Positions 8,742-30,254 of a DNA stretch of 64,000 nucleotides are shown here, piece after piece (positions within the stretch are counted from its first letter, which is position 1; every line of letters starts with the position of its first letter). Below the pieces are notes generated by a model. It was not told where the DNA came from. It saw only the letters and a list, made by a program, of their open reading frames with translations, and ran no database searches. The stretch covers positions 1 to 64,000 of the forward strand of contig NZ_JALJRB010000009.1 of NCBI RefSeq assembly GCF_022968795.1. The letters are read 5' to 3'. This stretch comes from Desulfatitalea alkaliphila (lineage in GTDB: Bacteria; Desulfobacterota; Desulfobacteria; Desulfobacterales; Desulfosarcinaceae). The position numbers were made by a program, and so were the translations under genes.

Positions 8742-9290
8742 TTATGGAACCCTGTATTCGAAGTCATGGCACAACAGGCAGAAGTTTTCCGACCATGTGT
8801 GCTGATGATGGCACAAGTCGCAAGCCAGGTAGGTTTTACCGTGGGGAGAACCGTGGGGATTGTGGGGTCGCGTGGTCGCCGTTCGGGCGATCACTTCTTC
8901 CAAACTGCCATGGCATGCCAGGCACTGCTCCGTGGTCAGCGGTCCCGCAAGCGTGCCTTGCGGATGACACTGGTTGCAAGTAATGCCGTGGAGTTGATGC
9001 AGGTGGCCCAGGGGTATTTTGGCGACCAAAGTCAACGGCGAACCCTTTGCGTGGCACGCGCGGCAATCCGCGGCATCCATCGATGCCGTGGGCACATGAT
9101 TCTTGGGCAGTACATCGGCCCGGCCGTGACAAGCAACGCAATCCCCGGGCCGGGCTTGTTCGTCCCGGGATTGGGAATCAGCGACCATCGCACAGACCAG
9201 CAGAACGACCAGAAACAGAGTCAATGCCATAGTCCGCCTGCGCAATGCGTCAAACTTGCGCCGGCGGACCAATGAACACAGTTGCGGCAT
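8742..9290 (-). CDS. Membrane-anchored or periplasmic hexaheme cytochrome c
   Basis: A 182-residue protein with six CXXCH heme-binding motifs: CVACH, CRACH, CNQCH, CLACH, CDLCH and CLLCH. A basic N-terminus and one hydrophobic segment (ALTLFLVVLLVCAMV) serve as a signal or membrane anchor, so the hemes face the periplasm. The spacing resembles the cytochrome domain of flavocytochrome c reductases, which usually has four hemes. It lies 82 bases behind the flavoprotein gene and most likely passes electrons to it. The ATG at 9290 has GGGAG upstream; an ATG at 9305 is an alternative. Confidence 0.8.
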   Translation of the reverse strand: MPQLCSLVRRRKFDALRRRTMALTLFLVVLLVCAMVADSQSRDEQARPGDCVACHGRADVLPKNHVPTASMDAADCRACHAKGSPLTLVAKIPLGHLHQLHGITCNQCHPQGTLAGPLTTEQCLACHGSLEEVIARTATTRPHNPHGSPHGKTYLACDLCHHQHTWSENFCLLCHDFEYRVP

Positions 9291-9372
9291 GCCTTGCTCT
9301 CCCATGCAGCGGATTAATACAGGGGTCGGGGAGCGGCCCTTCAGCGAACACCCCTCCCAGACCTTCCGATCG

Positions 9373-10935
9373 TTAACCCCAAGGCTTTTCGGCGGCGGCT
9401 TGGCGCCCGGCGATGCGGCCGAAGGTGAGGCAGTCCACAACCGCGCAGCTGCCGAGGCGCACCGCCCCGTGGACAGCGCCCGTCACCTCACCCGCGCAAT
9501 AGAGCCCGGGGATGGGGGCATCGGTTTCGACATCCAGGGCCTGGGCATCGGTGTTGATGCGCACCCCGCCCATAGTGTGATGCACCTTGGGCATGAGCCG
9601 CGAAGCATAGTAGGGGGCGGTTTCCAGGGGAAATTGATCTTTCTGAAGATAGCGGCCCCACTCCTCGTCCTTGCCTGCGGCGACCGATGTATTAAAGCGT
9701 TGAATGGTTTCCTGCAGCGGAGCGAGCGGCATGTCGTAGGCCGCGGCCATCGCCTCCAGGGATTCATGGCGCTTGACCACCCCTCTGTCGATCAACCGGT
9801 TCATGATTTCCCCCAGGGCCTTTTGCCCGAGGGCGTAACCCTTGGCGTCCGTGAAGGCGATGCATTTGTTGCCGGCACGAATAATGGCATCCGCGCGAAT
9901 CTTCCGGTCCGCCAGCTCATTGACGAAGCGCTTGCCGGTCAAGGTGTCGACCCAGAGACCATACATGGCGCAGCACAACTGGGCGAAAAAGGGGTTCAGG
10001 CCCATGCCCCGTTCGTCCGGACTGCCCCAGGGCCCCAACTGGATCCAGGAAAGCTGGACGGGCGTGCACCCGATCCGGAAAGCCTCGCGCAACGCCTCGG
10101 CCGTCGCGCCGGGTTGATTGGTGCTCTCGAGCTCCTGGGTCAGCCGGGGATCCTGCACGGAACGAAATGCCACATCGTTGCCGAAGCCGCCCGTGGCCAG
10201 CACCACGGCCTTGCGGGCCTTGATGAATTGCTGCCGGCCGCTTCCCTCTTTTGGAAAAAGGTACCCTTCGCGCACTTCGACCCCTTTGATGCGGCCGTCG
10301 TTGTCCCGCAGTATGCGTTTGAGCAATATCCCGGTCCGGGGCACGACCCCCAAGGCCGCCAGCTTCTCCAGCTGCTGCTCCACAATGGCCGAGCCGCTCT
10401 GGTTGTATGTGCTGTACATGCGCGGTACGGCGTGGCCGCCCTCCTGGGTCACCCCGTCCTTGTACTTGACCCCCAGCTCGTTGATGGTCCACTGCACCAT
10501 GTTGTTGGATTCCTGGGCCACAATCCGGGCCAATGGCAAGTGATTGAGATGGAGACCGGCCGCCAGCATGTCCTGCAACAGGATCTCCGGCGAATCCTGG
10601 ATGCCCGCTTTTGCCTGCAACGGCGAACCCGCCGCGGCCACCACCCCGCCGTTGATGATGGAGTTGCCGCCGGGGGTCCGCATCTTTTCCAGCACAACCA
10701 CCGAGGCACCCGCCTTTTTCGCTTCATAGGCGGCGGCCAGCCCCGCGAAACCACTGCCGACGACGATCACATCGAAGGTCTCGTCCCACTTTTCCGGCAT
10801 TTCGGCCGCAAACGCCTTTTTGCTGCCCAGGAGCAAACCGCCGCCGGCCATGCCGGCCGCGGCGGCCATCCCGCCCGTGGCCTTCATGAAATCGCGCCGA
10901 CTGACTCCTTTGTTCTTTTGCTTTTGACTGCCCAT
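9373..10935 (-). CDS. Tat-exported flavocytochrome c-type FAD reductase subunit
   Basis: A 520-residue flavoprotein of the fumarate/urocanate-type reductase family. A twin-arginine signal (SRRDFMK then an Ala/Gly-rich hydrophobic run) occupies residues about 10-45, so it is exported folded. The dinucleotide-binding motif GSGFAGLAAA follows near residue 60. Near the C-terminus HHTMGGVRI and HGAVRLGS carry the His and Arg used for substrate binding in Shewanella fumarate reductase, within the GLYCAGEVTGAVHG block. The heme domain is absent and supplied by the next gene. Substrate is uncertain: fumarate, urocanate or another enoate. The start at 10935 has GAAGGAGG. Confidence 0.85.
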   Translation of the reverse strand: MGSQKQKNKGVSRRDFMKATGGMAAAAGMAGGGLLLGSKKAFAAEMPEKWDETFDVIVVGSGFAGLAAAYEAKKAGASVVVLEKMRTPGGNSIINGGVVAAAGSPLQAKAGIQDSPEILLQDMLAAGLHLNHLPLARIVAQESNNMVQWTINELGVKYKDGVTQEGGHAVPRMYSTYNQSGSAIVEQQLEKLAALGVVPRTGILLKRILRDNDGRIKGVEVREGYLFPKEGSGRQQFIKARKAVVLATGGFGNDVAFRSVQDPRLTQELESTNQPGATAEALREAFRIGCTPVQLSWIQLGPWGSPDERGMGLNPFFAQLCCAMYGLWVDTLTGKRFVNELADRKIRADAIIRAGNKCIAFTDAKGYALGQKALGEIMNRLIDRGVVKRHESLEAMAAAYDMPLAPLQETIQRFNTSVAAGKDEEWGRYLQKDQFPLETAPYYASRLMPKVHHTMGGVRINTDAQALDVETDAPIPGLYCAGEVTGAVHGAVRLGSCAVVDCLTFGRIAGRQAAAEKPWG

Positions 10936-23551: not shown

Positions 23552-24499
23552 TTACGCGGGGTCCATCACCGGCCGCGGCAACACACCGGCCCGCTCGGCG
23601 ATTTCGGGCACTTTGTGCTCCCACTCGATGGCCATCAGATGGACGCCGGCCACGCCCGCCATCTGTTTGAACTCTTCGATCTGTTCAATGGCGAACTTGA
23701 TGCCCTCTTCGGCCATCTTGCCTTTGCCGGCGCCTTCCAACCGCTTGATCAGCTCTGCGGGCACATCCATGCCGGGCACGAATTTGGCCATGTACTTGGC
23801 CATACCCGCGCTTTTCATGGGGGTGACGCCGGCAAGGATGTAGGCCCGCTCGGTCAGGCCCATGTCCACGGCGCGTTTCATGAACTCACGGAAGCGGGGC
23901 ATGTTGTAGATGCACTGGGTCTGGATGAAATCGGCCCCGGCATCGATCTTGTTGGCCAGACGGTAGACGCGAAACTCGGTGGGGTCGGCGAAGGGGTTGG
24001 CCGCGGCGCCGATAAAGAGTTTCGGCGGCCCGTCGATCTCCTCGTCGTTGAGAAACTTGCCTTCATCCCGCATCTTCTTGGCCAGGGCGATCAATTGCAT
24101 GCTGTCCAGGTCGTAGACGTTCTTGGCTTCCGGATGGTTGCCGAACTTCTGGTGGTCGCCGGACAGGCAGAGCATATTACGGATGCCCAGGGCGTGAATG
24201 CCCAGGATGTCGCTCTGCATGGCGATGCGGTTGCGGTCGCGGCACACCATCTGAAAATTGGGTTCCAGGCCGGCCTGCACCATCAAGGCACTGGCGGCTT
24301 TGCTGGACATGCGCACCACGGCGGTCTGGTTGTCGGTCACGTTAATGGCGTCCACCACGCCTTTCAGGGGCGCCATCTTCTCGTTGAGATGCTCTACGTT
24401 GGCCCCCTTGGGCGGTCCGCACTCACCGGTGAAGGCGAAATGACCCGCTTTGAGGACCCGTTCCAGGTTGCTTCCGGATTTGTAACCGTTGTCGCTCAT
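23552..24499 (-). CDS. metF: Methylenetetrahydrofolate reductase, MetF
   Basis: A 315-residue TIM-barrel flavoprotein that reduces methylene-tetrahydrofolate to methyl-tetrahydrofolate. The FAD and folate region includes FTGECGPPKG near the N-terminus (catalytic Glu), VTDNQTAVVRMS, and NMLCLSGDH. GADFIQTQCIYN and YILAGVTPMKSAGMAKYM are typical of the family. Its start overlaps the metV stop by four bases (ATGA), so the two subunits are made together. In the acetogen-type system MetF needs MetV, and electrons come from HdrA/MvhD-type partners, both encoded upstream here. Confidence 0.93.
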   Translation of the reverse strand: MSDNGYKSGSNLERVLKAGHFAFTGECGPPKGANVEHLNEKMAPLKGVVDAINVTDNQTAVVRMSSKAASALMVQAGLEPNFQMVCRDRNRIAMQSDILGIHALGIRNMLCLSGDHQKFGNHPEAKNVYDLDSMQLIALAKKMRDEGKFLNDEEIDGPPKLFIGAAANPFADPTEFRVYRLANKIDAGADFIQTQCIYNMPRFREFMKRAVDMGLTERAYILAGVTPMKSAGMAKYMAKFVPGMDVPAELIKRLEGAGKGKMAEEGIKFAIEQIEEFKQMAGVAGVHLMAIEWEHKVPEIAERAGVLPRPVMDPA

Positions 24500-25164
24500 T
24501 GCACCAGCTCCTCCCTTATACTCTTACGGGGTCCGCCGTCCCGGGCCGTGCGCCAATCCTTGGCGGCCCAATAGCGGCGCAGGTCCTCCAGCCGTCCCTG
24601 TTCCGTTTTCTTGCGCACGATCAGATCCCAGACACAGACCACGTCCTTGGCGATTTCGCACTTTCCCGCGGCGCTTCCGCCGCAGGGTCCGTGCTGCAGG
24701 CTTTTGGAACAGCGGGAGATGGGGCACATGCCGTCGAAGAAGTGGATAATGCAGGTGCCGCAACCGGCGCAGCGCTCTTCCCAGACGCCATGGCGCACGG
24801 CGCCGCCCATGAAGGTGGTGTTGACGGTGGGAAAAAAGCGCTGTTCGGGATAGGCCTCGGAGAGAAACTGGGGCCCGACGCCGCAGGCCATGGAGAGAAC
24901 GGCGTCATACTGGTCATACACGTCGCGCAGTTGCTCTATATACTCCGGGTCGCACTGCCGCTCCAGCATCCGCTCTTCGATTTTGATGGGGCGACCCTCT
25001 TTTTTGCGGGCGATGCGCAAGGTGGAGGCCAGAATCTGCACCTCCTTGAGGCCGCCGACGTTGCAGACGGTCACACACCCCTTACAGCCGACCAACATAA
25101 TGTTGTCGTACGGCTTTATCATCTCCTGGATCTCTTCCAGGGGTTTTCGGTCAGCAATAATCAT
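24496..25164 (-). CDS. metV: Methylenetetrahydrofolate reductase partner, MetV
   Basis: A 222-residue protein of the MetV/MTHFR C-terminal zinc and Fe-S family. It has many cysteines: GCKGCVTVCNVGG near residue 27, CGTCIIHFFDGMCPISRCSK near residue 140, and HGPCGG close by. These bind Zn2+ and iron-sulfur clusters and wire MetF to its electron donor. The ATG at 25164 has GAGGTG upstream. It lies 75 bases after mvhD and overlaps metF, so it belongs to the same operon. Confidence 0.9.
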   Translation of the reverse strand: MIIADRKPLEEIQEMIKPYDNIMLVGCKGCVTVCNVGGLKEVQILASTLRIARKKEGRPIKIEERMLERQCDPEYIEQLRDVYDQYDAVLSMACGVGPQFLSEAYPEQRFFPTVNTTFMGGAVRHGVWEERCAGCGTCIIHFFDGMCPISRCSKSLQHGPCGGSAAGKCEIAKDVVCVWDLIVRKKTEQGRLEDLRRYWAAKDWRTARDGGPRKSIREELVQ

Positions 25165-25238: not shown

Positions 25239-25682
25239 TCAAGCCGGCGTCTCCTCGGTCGCTGTTACGCAGGGATTGAGCGGGCTGGGGCCCAGTTCCT
25301 TGGCCCGTTCGGTCATTTCGGTGGCGATCTCCGCGAACCGCGGTCCCTGGGCCGAAGACAGATTGTACATTTCCACCCGTTCACTCTTCATACCGATGGC
25401 TTTCAGGGTGCGCTTCACATATTCGACTTTGCGGCGGGTTTTGATATTTCCTTCCAGGAAATGGCATTCACCCTCCAGTCACCCGGCCACATAGACGGCG
25501 TCGGCACCGTCTTCTATGGCCCGCAACAGGTGCAGTATGTCCACGCGACCGGTGCAGGGCACCTGGATCACCTTGACGTTGGGCGGATAGTTCAGCCGCA
25601 TGGAACCGGCCAGATCGCCCGCCGCGTATGCGCAGTACTTGCAGCAAAAGGCGACGATTTGGGGTTCGTAGGTTGCTGTCAT
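25239..25682 (-). CDS. mvhD: MvhD-type electron-transfer subunit with selenocysteine (UGA at residue 68)
   Basis: A 147-residue [2Fe-2S] protein of the MvhD/hydrogenase delta-subunit family, which links HdrA to a partner oxidoreductase. Conventional reading stops after VYVAG at a TGA (25479-25481). Reading through gives U-LEGECHFLEGN, exactly where homologues have GCxxGxCH, and continues for 79 family-like residues (RRKVEYVKRTLKAIGM, RVEMYNLSSAQG, AKELGPSPLNP) to a TGA at 25239-25241. Other ligands are CCKYCAYAAGD and VPCTGR. Selenocysteine at this type of site is known for VhuD of methanogens. The ATG has GGAAGAGG upstream. Confidence 0.88.
25446..25481 (-). promoter_or_regulatory. UGA codon and bacterial SECIS-like hairpin in mvhD
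   Basis: Directly behind the in-frame TGA, after 16 bases, ATTTCC (25462-25457) pairs with GGAAAT (25451-25446) around the loop TGGAA. The loop begins 22 bases after TGA and has G in its second position. Six pairs, a small G-bearing loop and this distance fit the bacterial SECIS pattern recognised by SelB. Confidence 0.75.
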
Positions 25683-25790
25683 GGCCTCTTCCTTTCTTGG
25701 ATGGTGAAGTGTTTTTTGCTTTGGATAATTGTTTCGATCCCCCGCCCCGCGGTTGTCTTCTTCGGCAGGCGCAGGGGATCGTTCTGGCGC

Positions 25791-28700
25791 TTATTGGGTC
25801 AAGCACTCGGCGAACAAGGCATCGGTCTTGGCGATGAGCTGTTGATCGGTGAAGTGTTTCAGGGTGATGGCCTTGCCCGGGCATTCGGAGACGCAGCAGC
25901 CGCAGCCCTGGCACCCGGCCGGATCGATGACCGCGTAGCCCTCCGAACCGATATAGGGCACATGATAGGGGCAGGTGCGCACGCAGGTCAAGCAGACCGC
26001 GCACTTGTCCGGATCCACGATGGCCGTCACACCGCCCACCCAGATGGTCTCCTTGCTCAGAATGGTCGAAGCGCGGGAGACCGCCGCCTGGGCCTGGGCG
26101 ATGGTTTCGTCGATGGACTTGGGATAATGGGCCAGGCCGGCCATGAAGATCCCCTCGGAGGAGAAATCCACCGGGCGCAGCTTGGCGTGGGCCTCGACCA
26201 GAAAGCCCTCGGCGTTGATGGGCACCTTGAACAGCTCGAACAGATCCTTGTTCTCGTTGGGCAGCACCGCTGTCGCCAGCACCAGCAGGTCGGGGTTGAG
26301 TTCGATGGGCCGTCCCAGGATGTGATCCTTGACCGTGACGCTGAGTTGATCGCCATCGGCAGCCACGTTGGGGGCCGAGGCCAGGTCGAAACGGATGAAG
26401 ATCACACCCAGCTCCCGGGCCTTGCGGTAGAGGTCTTCCCGGAAACCGTAGGTGCGGATGTCGCGGTAAAGGATAAAGACGCTCATCTCCGGCTTGCGCT
26501 CCTTGAGTGCGATGGCCGACTTGACGCTGTGAGTGCAGCAGATGCGGCTGCACGAGGGGCGCTCCTCGGTGCGCGAGCCCACACACTGGATGAAAACGGC
26601 CGTGTCGGCCGCGGCGATGCGTTCGTCTTCGGCGGTCATGGCCTCGTCCATCTGCTGGTGGGTCAGAATGGCGGGGTGCTGACCGTACTGGTATTCGGTG
26701 GGCTGGTACTCCTTGCCGCCGGTGGCCAACACCGTTACGCCGTGCTCGATGGCGGTGGTCGTCATGGTGGTGCCGCCGGTGGCCACCGTGCTGGTGAAGT
26801 GGCCCAGAATGCCCGCGGTTTCAACCACCTCGCTGTTGAGATGCAGACGGATTTTAGGGTGGTTGCTCACCCGCTCGATGAGCTTTTCCACGTAGGGCCG
26901 CACTTTTTCTCCCTGCCAGGTGGCGCGCAGCCACAGGGCGTTGCCGCCCAGATGATCTTCCCGTTCCACCAGATCGGTTTGAAACCCCTGATCGGCCAGT
27001 CCTAAAGCAGCCTCCATGCCGGCCACGCCGCCGCCCACCACCAGGGCCGTCTGTTTGACCTCCAGGCTCACCTGGTGCAACGGCTCCACATAGGCCGCCT
27101 TGGCCACGGCCATGCGCACCAGGTCCTTGGCCTTTTCGGTGGCCTTGGCCGGATTGTTCATGTGCACCCAGGTGTTCTGATCGCGAATGTTGGCCATTTC
27201 GAAAAGATATTTGTTCAGGCCGGCCTCGCGGATGGTTTCCTGGAACAGGGGCTCGTGGGTGCGCGGCGAACAGGAGGCCACCACCACCCGGTTGATGCCC
27301 ATTTCCTTGATCACCTCTTTCATCTTGTCCTGGGTGTCCTGGGAGCAGGTGAACAAGTTGTCTTCCACGTGCACCACGTGGGGCAGGTTCCTGGCATACT
27401 CACGCACCGCCGGCACATCGGCCACGCCGCCGATGTTGATGCCGCAGTTGCAGACAAAAACGCCCACCCGCGGCGCCTGGTCGGCCACATCCAGCTCGGG
27501 CGGCAACTGCTTGGCCCGGATCAGCGTACCCCGGGCGGCCGTCAGGTTCTTGGCCGAAGCGGCCGCGGCGGCGGACGCCTCCATCACCGATTGCGGAATG
27601 TCCTTGGGTCCCTGGAACACGCCGCAAACGTATATCCCTTCTTTGTTGGTGGCTACCGGCGCCAGATCGCTGGTCTGGGCGAACTGGTGGCCATTGAGAT
27701 CGATGCCCACGGTATGGGCCAGTTTGATCGCCGCTTCGTTGGGCGCCAGCCCCACGGAGAGGACCACCATGTCGAAGAGCTCTTCGATCAGCTCGCCCTC
27801 TTCATTCACATAACGCAGTCGTAGATTGTCACCTTCCACCGGGTCGATGGTGTGTACCCGCGAACGGACGAAGCGCACCCCTTTTTCGTTCTCGCAGCGC
27901 ATGTAGTAGCGTTCGAAATCCTTGCCGTAGGTGCGCATGTCCATGAAGAAGACGGCGGTGTCCAGATCTTTACTGCTATGCTCCTTGGCGATCACCGTCT
28001 GCTTGGCGGCGTACATGCAGCACACCGCCGAACAGTAGCTGTGGTCGCACTTATTGATATCCCGCGAGCCGATGCACTGCAGCCAGGCGATCTTCTCCGG
28101 CTCCTTGTGGTCCGAAGGCCGGATCAAGTGCCCCTGATATGGGCCGGACGCGGAAAGAATCCGTTCGAATTCCAGGGCGGTGACCACGTTGGGATGCTTG
28201 GCATAGGCGTAGTATTCGTGCTTGCTCGGATCGTAGGGCGAAAAGCCGGGGGCCAGGATCAAGGAGCCCACCTCCACCACCGTGCGCTTGGGCTGCATCT
28301 CGTGGTTAACCGCCTTGGCCAGGCACGCCTCCACGCACTGGTAGCATTCCGAGCAGATGCCGCACTTGAGACAGCGGTCGGCCTCCAGTTTGGCCTCTTC
28401 TTCGTTGTAACCGAAGGAGACTTCCAAAAAGTTGCACTCCCGCGCCTCGGGATCCAGGCAGCGCACGGTCACGCGCTTTTTCTTCTCTTCATAGGCCGTC
28501 TCCGGCTTGACGTATTCCCACTTTTTCTCGCGACCTTCCTTCAGATCCAGGCCGTTGACGAAACGGTGAATGCTTTCGGCGGCCTCCTTGCCGCAGGCCA
28601 CGGCATCCACCACCGATTTGGGGCCGTAGAAGGCATCGCCACCGGCGAACACCCATTCGATGGGGGTTTGCAGGGTGACCGGATCGGCCTCCAGGCCGCC

Positions 28701-30254
28701 GGGGCGGGAGATGGCGATCTCCTGCTCCTTGATGCCCTCCAGGTTGGTGCTCTGGCCGATGGCGATAATTACCGTGTCGGCGAAAAAGGGCTGGCAAGCG
28801 TTGTCGTCGTACTGCGGACTGAACCGGCCGTCCTCGTCGAAGACCGTCGTGCAGGTCTTGAACTCGAGGCCCGACACCTTCTTGTTCTTGTCGATGAAGA
28901 AGGATTTCGGACCGAAACTGTTGACGATTTGGATGTCGCCCTCCAGGGCCTCTTCGATCTCGTGCTCCCAGGCCGGCATCTCTTCGCGCTTCTCCAGGCA
29001 GATCAGGGTGACATTCTTGGCCCCCTTGCGCTTGGCGGTCAAGGCTACGTCGATGGCCACATTGCCGCCGCCCACCACCAACACATCCTCGCCGATGACC
29101 ACCTCCTTGCCCATGGCCGCGTCGCGCAGGAATTCGACCCCTTGCAGCACTCCTTCGGCATCCTCGTTTTCCACGCCCAGTCGCCGGCCGCCGTGCAAGC
29201 CGATGGCCAGGAAACAGGCCTTGTACCCCTCTTTTTGCAAGCTCTCCAGGGTGACCTCCTTGCCGAAGGTGACACCACAGCGGATCTCCACCCCCATCTG
29301 CCGGATCACATCGATCTCCTCGGCCAGAATGTCGCGCGGCAAGCGGTATTCGGGAATCCCTACGCGCATCATGCCGCCGGGTTCGGGCAGCTTTTCGAAG
29401 ATGGTCACCCCGTACCCTTTGAGGGTCAGGTAGTAGGCCGCCGTCAGGCCGGCGGGGCCCGCGCCGATCACGGCGATCTTCTCATCCCGCTTATCCGCCT
29501 CAACGGCGGGAATGTAGGTGTCACCGCTCTGGCGCTCGTAGTCGGCCAAAAAGCGGTGCAGTTCGCGGATGGCCAGGGGCTGGTCCACCTCGTTGCGGGT
29601 ACACTCCCCTTCACAAGGGTGGTGGCACACACGGCCGCACACGGCCGGGAAGGGATGGTCCTGCTTGAACAGCTTGAGGGCTTCCTTGTAACGGCCGTCG
29701 TTGATCAGGGCGATGTAGCCCTGAATGCTTACATGGGCCGGGCAAGTGGCCTTGCAGGGCGCCGTGCCGCGCTTTTCGATAGCGTAGGCACTGGGCATGC
29801 CCTGGGGATAGAGCTTGAAGGCCGCCTTGCGTTCGCGCAATCCCTCGTCGAAAGTGTTGGGCATCTCGATGGGACACACCTTGCTGCATTCGCCGCAGGC
29901 CGTGCACTTGTCCAGGTCCACATACCGGGGCCGTTCCAGCAGGGTGACCTTGAAGTTGCCGGCCTCGCCCTCCACCTTTTCCACCTCGGTCATGGTGTAC
30001 AGATCGATGTTCAGGTGGCGCCCCGCCTCCACCAGTTTGGGGGAGATGACGCACATGGAACAGTCGTTGGTGGGAAAAGTCTTGTCCAGCTGGGCCATGA
30101 CACCGCCGATGGCCGATTTTTCCTCCACCATTTTGACCAGGTATCCCGAATCGGCCAAATCCAGGGAGGCTTGAATGCCGGCGATGCCGCCGCCCACCAC
30201 CATTACGGAACCGACCACGCTTTTTTTAGAATCCGAACTGTTTTCAGGTTGCAT
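25791..30254 (-). CDS. HdrA / NfnB(GltD)-like / HdrA fusion flavoprotein
   Basis: A 1487-residue multidomain iron-sulfur flavoprotein. Residues 1-150 are HdrA-like: FAD motif GGGIAGIQAS at 21, TNDCSMC at 63, cluster CTACGECSKVCP at 117. Residues about 160-580 are inserted and resemble the NADPH-dependent GltD/NfnB subunit: Cys-rich start (CKATCPAH, CGRVCHHPCEGEC), GAGPAGLTAAY at 264 and a second nucleotide motif GGGNVAIDVAL. HdrA resumes at about 635 with CLKCGICSECYQCVEAC and CSAVCCMYAAKQ. A second HdrA spans about 920-1487 (CNCGINIGG, GGGVAGMEAAL, CSRICCTHSVK) and ends with two [4Fe-4S] motifs, CAVCLTCVRTCP and CQGCGCCVSECP. It is first in the mvhD-metV-metF operon. Confidence 0.9.
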   Translation of the reverse strand: MQPENSSDSKKSVVGSVMVVGGGIAGIQASLDLADSGYLVKMVEEKSAIGGVMAQLDKTFPTNDCSMCVISPKLVEAGRHLNIDLYTMTEVEKVEGEAGNFKVTLLERPRYVDLDKCTACGECSKVCPIEMPNTFDEGLRERKAAFKLYPQGMPSAYAIEKRGTAPCKATCPAHVSIQGYIALINDGRYKEALKLFKQDHPFPAVCGRVCHHPCEGECTRNEVDQPLAIRELHRFLADYERQSGDTYIPAVEADKRDEKIAVIGAGPAGLTAAYYLTLKGYGVTIFEKLPEPGGMMRVGIPEYRLPRDILAEEIDVIRQMGVEIRCGVTFGKEVTLESLQKEGYKACFLAIGLHGGRRLGVENEDAEGVLQGVEFLRDAAMGKEVVIGEDVLVVGGGNVAIDVALTAKRKGAKNVTLICLEKREEMPAWEHEIEEALEGDIQIVNSFGPKSFFIDKNKKVSGLEFKTCTTVFDEDGRFSPQYDDNACQPFFADTVIIAIGQSTNLEGIKEQEIAISRPGGLEADPVTLQTPIEWVFAGGDAFYGPKSVVDAVACGKEAAESIHRFVNGLDLKEGREKKWEYVKPETAYEEKKKRVTVRCLDPEARECNFLEVSFGYNEEEAKLEADRCLKCGICSECYQCVEACLAKAVNHEMQPKRTVVEVGSLILAPGFSPYDPSKHEYYAYAKHPNVVTALEFERILSASGPYQGHLIRPSDHKEPEKIAWLQCIGSRDINKCDHSYCSAVCCMYAAKQTVIAKEHSSKDLDTAVFFMDMRTYGKDFERYYMRCENEKGVRFVRSRVHTIDPVEGDNLRLRYVNEEGELIEELFDMVVLSVGLAPNEAAIKLAHTVGIDLNGHQFAQTSDLAPVATNKEGIYVCGVFQGPKDIPQSVMEASAAAAASAKNLTAARGTLIRAKQLPPELDVADQAPRVGVFVCNCGINIGGVADVPAVREYARNLPHVVHVEDNLFTCSQDTQDKMKEVIKEMGINRVVVASCSPRTHEPLFQETIREAGLNKYLFEMANIRDQNTWVHMNNPAKATEKAKDLVRMAVAKAAYVEPLHQVSLEVKQTALVVGGGVAGMEAALGLADQGFQTDLVEREDHLGGNALWLRATWQGEKVRPYVEKLIERVSNHPKIRLHLNSEVVETAGILGHFTSTVATGGTTMTTTAIEHGVTVLATGGKEYQPTEYQYGQHPAILTHQQMDEAMTAEDERIAAADTAVFIQCVGSRTEERPSCSRICCTHSVKSAIALKERKPEMSVFILYRDIRTYGFREDLYRKARELGVIFIRFDLASAPNVAADGDQLSVTVKDHILGRPIELNPDLLVLATAVLPNENKDLFELFKVPINAEGFLVEAHAKLRPVDFSSEGIFMAGLAHYPKSIDETIAQAQAAVSRASTILSKETIWVGGVTAIVDPDKCAVCLTCVRTCPYHVPYIGSEGYAVIDPAGCQGCGCCVSECPGKAITLKHFTDQQLIAKTDALFAECLTQ

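Follow-up and report, generated by a model that had tools for sequence, protein, structure and literature searches.

A predicted selenocysteine codon in the mvhD gene of an hdrA-mvhD-metV-metF operon of Desulfatitalea alkaliphila

The stretch of Desulfatitalea alkaliphila DNA analysed here (64,000 nucleotides, termed the window) carries an mvhD gene that is interrupted by an in-frame TGA codon. A plain stop-codon reading truncates MvhD and would make a methylenetetrahydrofolate reductase operon look broken. The locus raises the question of whether this UGA ends the protein, reflects an error, or specifies selenocysteine (Sec), and which HdrA-linked complex the resulting protein would serve. 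The features on which our analysis is based are collected in Table 1.

Table 1. Features of the mvhD locus in window coordinates
Feature	Position	Strand	Description
metF, methylenetetrahydrofolate reductase	23552..24499	(-)	PF02219
metV	24496..25164	(-)	PF12225
mvhD	25239..25682	(-)	147-residue read-through product, predicted Sec at residue 68; PF02662 match spans TGA; ATG at 25682, terminal TGA at 25241-25239
Possible lower stem GGGU/ACCC below core	25436..25473	(-)	From fold; variable among relatives, less certain
Core hairpin, predicted bacterial SECIS: ATTTCCT-GGA-AGGAAAT	25446..25462	(-)	7 pairs, G-rich apical loop
In-frame UGA, predicted to be recoded (predicted Sec codon, residue 68)	25479..25481	(-)	First Cys position of GCxxGxCH; TGA read 25481-25479
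Shine-Dalgarno-like GGAAGAGG before mvhD ATG	25685..25692	(-)	Direct reading
hdrA, long form (HdrL-like, 1487 aa)	25791..30254	(-)	HdrA parts, glutamate-synthase-small-subunit-like insert and ferredoxin domains

The in-frame UGA and the read-through product

Conventional translation of mvhD yields 67 residues, and reading through the TGA yields 147. The initial annotation had located the TGA after residue 67 and proposed that same-frame read-through restores MvhD; its coordinates are exact, and the PF02662 (FlpD) profile matches the 147-residue protein across the TGA over its entire length (positions 1-123 of 123, E = 1.1e-47, 161.6 bits against a cut-off of 22.3). It had also assigned the UGA to the first Cys of a GCxxGxCH signature, in agreement with the read-through motif G-U-L-E-G-E-C-H. 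The suggested alignment to MvhD and VhuD extends over the length of the read-through protein. Among solved MvhD chains, the sequence matches 7bkb_F best (4.7e-39), and 9sfi_K is matched at 2.9e-37. The score with the VhuD model NF045873 is 152.7 bits, below the curated cut-off of 215. The protein thus appears to be a relative of MvhD rather than VhuD itself, and it may work in a VhuD-like manner.

An open frame beyond the mvhD TGA is weak evidence when taken alone, because such in-frame TGA codons are common in this GC-rich window. A crude filter, requiring at least 35 codons and a GC3 of at least 0.6 on both sides of the TGA, finds 59 TGA codons (that of mvhD included) that split same-frame open reading frames. 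Among the 58 others, none of the 10 that were tested has a Pfam domain spanning the TGA. What goes beyond chance in mvhD is the domain that continues across the TGA, the presence of Cys in homologues where mvhD has the UGA, and the strongly conserved hairpin described below. Elsewhere in the window, at 8745-9767 (-), a cytochrome c3-like protein (PF14537) follows a TGA-separated open stretch, and its domain does not extend across the TGA.

The genome that contains the window is a draft of 5.07 Mb in 98 contigs and is 99.68% complete. The initial annotation had proposed that selA, selB, selC and selD be sought there, and all four are present: selA (605.2 bits, cut-off 268), selB (379.6 bits, cut-off 242), selD (367.2 bits, cut-off 125) and a tRNA-Sec whose anticodon is UCA (73.5 bits, gathering score 47), each above its curated cut-off. 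The selD gene (contig C16; L152:2607) is a TGA gene itself, with an in-frame UGA in U-A-S-K, and SelD is predicted to be a selenoprotein here. UxxK is the motif given for SelD selenoproteins, and CxxU is listed for those of HdrA (PMC13188914). On another contig (C35, at L151:797), an N-terminal piece of HdrA has an in-frame TGA that gives CAMU, a CxxU site; a further TGA follows at 1001, and this gene may be short, split or frame-shifted. The same contig carries a second Sec-type mvhD (C35:7070, L151:7070) in an hdrA cluster that lacks metVF and whose neighbouring redox open reading frames were named by eye. Its hairpin is as in the window gene, with a paired F-to-Y and Gly-codon change.

Codon 68 and the hairpin among homologues

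Homologues were collected from a genome-contig scan (80 loci), a family search (30 genomes) and the loci of the same genome. Residue 68 could be placed in all 119 loci, and with 12 extra regions added and duplicates merged the set comprises 113 distinct mvhD genes; the mvhD at C23:14053 is left out of this number because its locus aligned to a better-matching neighbour. The nearest named relatives are from Desulfatitalea. Codon 68 is TGA in 34 of the 113 genes, Cys (TGC or TGT) in 79, and nothing else. The position, Cys or predicted Sec in 113 of 113, is one of five near-invariant Cys positions, the others being residues 14 (conserved in 112 genes), 17 (103), 43 (112) and 73 (113). For the closest mvhD copy in each of the 30 family genomes the codon is TGA in 26 and Cys in two (L134 and L136), and the remaining two genomes have distant copies only. 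The presence of Cys at the UGA site in homologues, which the initial annotation had named as support for Sec, is seen in 79 genes.

The reading frame beyond the TGA remains under selection. Among 27 Sec-type genes of at least 75% identity, pN/pS is 0.120 upstream of the TGA and 0.215 downstream of it outside the hairpin, values that indicate purifying selection on MvhD past the TGA. These data bear on whether mvhD could be a pseudogene, or its TGA a sequencing or assembly error for TGC or TGT, as the draft state of the genome and the TGC or TGT codons of homologues might suggest. The TGA recurs in 34 distinct genes, selection persists after it, and a hairpin is present that is absent from nearly all Cys-type genes, all of which speak against such a reading. 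Resequencing had been named as a step that might reveal TGC or TGT; the recurrence of an identical TGA in separately assembled genomes makes a miscall very unlikely. We regard error or decay as having a very small probability, in effect refuted by the separate assemblies, and set it aside.

On the best mvhD tree (137 columns and 109 of the 113 rows, four below 35% identity having been dropped) there are at least nine changes between Sec and Cys, three of them forced by starred branches; this tree is poorly resolved and gives no direction of change. In two genomes (G013 and G022), the metVF-linked mvhD has Cys and lacks the hairpin (L134 and L136) and another mvhD has the TGA hairpin, an apparent local exchange of Sec and Cys. 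The genome of the window also contains a tandem pair of mvhD genes followed by hdrA (C23:14047-14890; L010, L012). Both genes of the pair lack an internal stop, and the product of the one read first shares 75% identity with the window Sec-MvhD.

Bacterial SECIS elements carry a G in the apical loop. In mvhD, a stem-loop with a G in its apical loop lies directly 3′ of the UGA and inside the reading frame, the hairpin starting 16 nt and its GGA loop 23 nt after the UGA. The initial annotation had described a hairpin of six pairs with a G-bearing loop; the hairpin and its GGA loop hold, and the number of pairs is seven. All seven pairs can form in 34 of 34 TGA genes as against four of 79 Cys genes, and the 18-mers covering the hairpin region take only three distinct forms in the former compared with 72 in the latter. 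The possible lower stem is kept in some TGA genes, although not in all.

In the TGA genes the hairpin is conserved down to its synonymous positions. In a comparison of synonymous codons between 33 Sec-type genes (at least 53% identity) and 61 Cys-type genes, pairs with the same residue at codons +4, +6 to +9 and +11 use the same codon in 100% (rounded) of cases in the Sec genes and in 34-54% in the Cys genes. Elsewhere in the Sec genes codon identity lies between 0.2 and 0.7 at most sites and above this range at a few, and pS is 0.207 in the hairpin versus 0.61 and 0.67 on either side. Moreover, the choice between Phe and Tyr goes together with that of the Gly codon on the other side of the stem: TTC occurs with GGA and TAC with GGT. 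When both positions were left free in the search, the 50 readable loci gave A...T in 43, T...A in seven and an unpaired combination in none, and inspection by eye of the remaining listed elements revealed only these same two combinations. We read this pattern as covariation through a synonymous site, and the comparative evidence as a whole indicates that the hairpin is under selection at the RNA level.

Folding energy was dropped as a test for the SECIS element, as it is not discriminating, and the comparative evidence was used instead. The z values are -0.43 and -0.92 with flanks and -1.96 for the bare hairpin, and mean energies are equal for TGA sequences (-10.48, n = 49) and Cys sequences (-10.46, n = 70), duplicates included. 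Rfam, run over the window with its gathering thresholds, gave no match. Three independent contrasts between Sec and Cys fall on strongly supported branches, and in these the hairpin goes in the same direction in an average of 2.8 of 3, with none in the opposite direction; with only three contrasts, we claim no significance for the association.

The element is also specific enough to be searched for directly. The TGA-N16-hairpin pattern occurs twice in the genome of the window, both times in mvhD, and its reversed-pattern control does not occur. Among sampled genomes of the order, TGA-N16-ATTNCCTGGAAGGNAAT is present in 214 of 291 (reversed-pattern control, 0 hits), and among those of the phylum in 75 of 395, of which 17 are also in the order sample (control, 1 hit); these counts represent Sec-type mvhD in any gene context. 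In all 50 loci that were read, TGA-N16-ATTNCCTGGAAGGNAAT lies in mvhD: every one aligns to the window MvhD with a score of 300-571, where the best of 200 shuffled controls reaches 53, and the part before the TGA alone scores at least 165. Given this association and the frequency in the order, the element can be used to mend annotation widely. Two variants of Sec-type mvhD can be seen among these loci (L155-L204). In many the motif is GUHPG..CHYLEGN and the sequence in view contains no metV, and those of the GULEG or GUEEG kind are mostly beside metV.

In our proposed mechanism, SelB carrying Sec-tRNA(Sec) would bind the hairpin 3′ of codon 68 and Sec would be inserted at the UGA, giving the 147-residue MvhD, and the UGA at the end of mvhD, which has no such element, would cause termination. 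Leaky read-through or a reassigned code that inserts Trp, Cys or Arg would likewise account for a frame that is open past the TGA. That mvhD itself ends at UGA argues against this route, as do the Cys codons of the 79 non-TGA relatives, the presence of SelA, SelB, SelD and tRNA-Sec, and the company that the hairpin keeps with TGA; we consider it highly improbable. Still more improbable, in our judgement, is genuine termination at the UGA to give a functional fragment of 67 residues, whether alone or accompanied by a C-terminal half made by reinitiation. In formal terms the codon is a stop, and the fragment holds three of the five conserved Cys residues. Yet purifying selection acts on the C-terminal half, which contains Cys73, the Cys-type relatives have a sense codon, and the conserved hairpin would be left with no evident purpose.

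The metVF operon and its Cys-type counterpart

The mvhD gene is adjacent to and co-oriented with hdrA, metV and metF, as expected for a Moorella-type HdrA-MvhD-MetVF reductase complex, and the long hdrA is open without any TGA read-through. Very probably, mvhD is a selenoprotein gene in which Sec is specified at the UGA by a bacterial SECIS element, and its product would link HdrA to MetVF. The prediction of selenocysteine made in the initial annotation is supported by the sel genes, the Cys homologues and the conserved hairpin. MvhD would serve as the [2Fe-2S] electron-transfer subunit between MetVF and the flavoprotein HdrA, which here has the long HdrL-like form. Because Sec replaces one of five near-invariant Cys residues, Sec68 is probably a ligand of the [2Fe-2S] cluster or adjacent to it. 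In the former case Sec would be a natural ligand for this cluster; in either case it would tune the redox potential or the rate of electron transfer.

The genes metV and metF follow 33 of the 34 TGA mvhD genes, a share that is high because the loci were sampled by similarity to the window gene; the exception is the C35 copy of the same genome. A search by hairpin gave 50 loci, most with about 1.5 kb in view on each side; metV is visible in 15 of them and metF in 14. Sec-type mvhD with metVF is a regular arrangement and not the only one, and with metV beside only 15 of the 50 hairpin-sampled loci, Sec is no peculiarity of the metVF-linked genes.

It is unlikely, on balance, that Sec is inserted but MvhD serves another HdrA complex, with metVF as mere operon neighbours. 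In favour of such an arrangement, MvhD is described as generally linking HdrA to a number of partners (PMC12350162, PMC6085437), and the genome has nine FlpD matches. Against it stands the occurrence of metV and metF after nearly all Sec-type genes of the similarity sample, including genes on contigs that binning assigns to Chloroflexi (L089) and Spirochaetes (L080). In a pull-down from Sporomusa ovata, tagged MvhD brought HdrB, HdrA and MetF with it, even though copurification of the complex was not achieved (PMC9430772).

The same genome carries a second hdrA-mvhD-metV-metF operon (C78:118000-130000; L009/L149), with a Cys-type mvhD and a shorter HdrA that lacks the insert. For comparison, 11 other genomes were picked from the 30 family genomes because they showed a similar Cys copy (G001, G002, G003, G006-G010, G019, G024 and G029). 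In 11 of the resulting 12 genomes, metV and metF follow the Cys-type mvhD, the twelfth locus (L141) stopping at a contig end, and all 12 also hold a Sec copy. In Methanococcus maripaludis, Sec and Cys isoforms coexist and are regulated by selenium (PMC11097638), a system with which the operon pair invites comparison by analogy. Replacement of this kind was already proposed in general terms for Desulfobacterium autotrophicum in 2009 (PMC2702500). As HdrA differs between the Sec and Cys operons, it may instead be that each takes its electrons from a donor of its own. The role that Sec would have at an iron-sulfur cluster becomes testable with such natural Sec/Cys pairs within a single genome.

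If the host family comprises, as we take it to, sulfate reducers that oxidise acetyl units completely, the HdrA-MvhD-MetVF complex would mostly run towards oxidation of methyl-THF in a reverse Wood-Ljungdahl pathway. Sec68 would bring selenium into the subunit through which electrons enter a central carbon pathway.

Comparison with known systems

The initial annotation had noted that Sec in this position is known from methanogen VhuD. Sec is indeed established in that subunit (PMC2933860), where the archaeal type of SECIS sits in untranslated regions (PMC9312934), but it is not confined to methanogens, having also been reported in sulfate reducers and syntrophs. By 2006, 19 bacterial FrhD selenoproteins had been counted, including eight in Syntrophobacter fumaroxidans and one in Moorella thermoacetica, for which a single Sec HdrA is tabulated as well (PMC1794560, Table 3). 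Four Sec mvhD genes (mvhD1, 2, 3 and 5) are given for D. autotrophicum (PMC2702500) and one for Desulfococcus multivorans (PMC5109826). The Sec-type MvhD and FrhD proteins of these organisms belong to the same gene family as the window protein, share the bacterial type of Sec insertion, and are often encoded beside hdrA or hdrL. The contexts described for them are hydrogenase, formate dehydrogenase and dsr, and in the portions of these reports that bear on the genes none is tied to metVF (PMC2702500, PMC5109826, PMC1794560).

Structures of Hdr complexes place the [2Fe-2S] cluster of MvhD close to the bifurcating flavin (PMC12350162). In the PDB chain 9sfi_K, of the same FlpD family, the position that aligns to residue 68 of the window MvhD is occupied by a non-standard residue, X. 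We infer that this X is Sec, and that Sec probably occupies the same position in both proteins. X also occurs in 9sfi_K at the position of Cys17, where the window MvhD has Cys, and the partner in that system is a [NiFe] hydrogenase with Hdr, whereas here it would be MetVF.

The HdrABC-MvhD-MetVF systems of M. thermoacetica and S. ovata likewise have HdrA, MvhD, MetV and MetF encoded together, and for the M. thermoacetica HdrA, too, residue numbers up to 1487 are reported (PMC9430772), the length of the window HdrA. Those complexes have HdrB and HdrC. A domain scan of the long HdrA revealed no HdrB-type CCG domain, and neither HdrB nor HdrC was recognised by eye among the open reading frames of the hdrA-mvhD-metV-metF operon, so that the complex here may differ from theirs. 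The passages that describe the Moorella and Sporomusa complexes make no mention of selenium in MvhD. Our literature search, which covered openly accessible articles, likewise found no description of a Sec-type MvhD tied to metVF, a weak negative. Sec-type MvhD is thus known in kind, and the fresher part is its link to an hdrA-mvhD-metV-metF operon; this link, the paired Sec and Cys operons and a sharply defined SECIS element that is easy to search for are the main points of interest in the locus.
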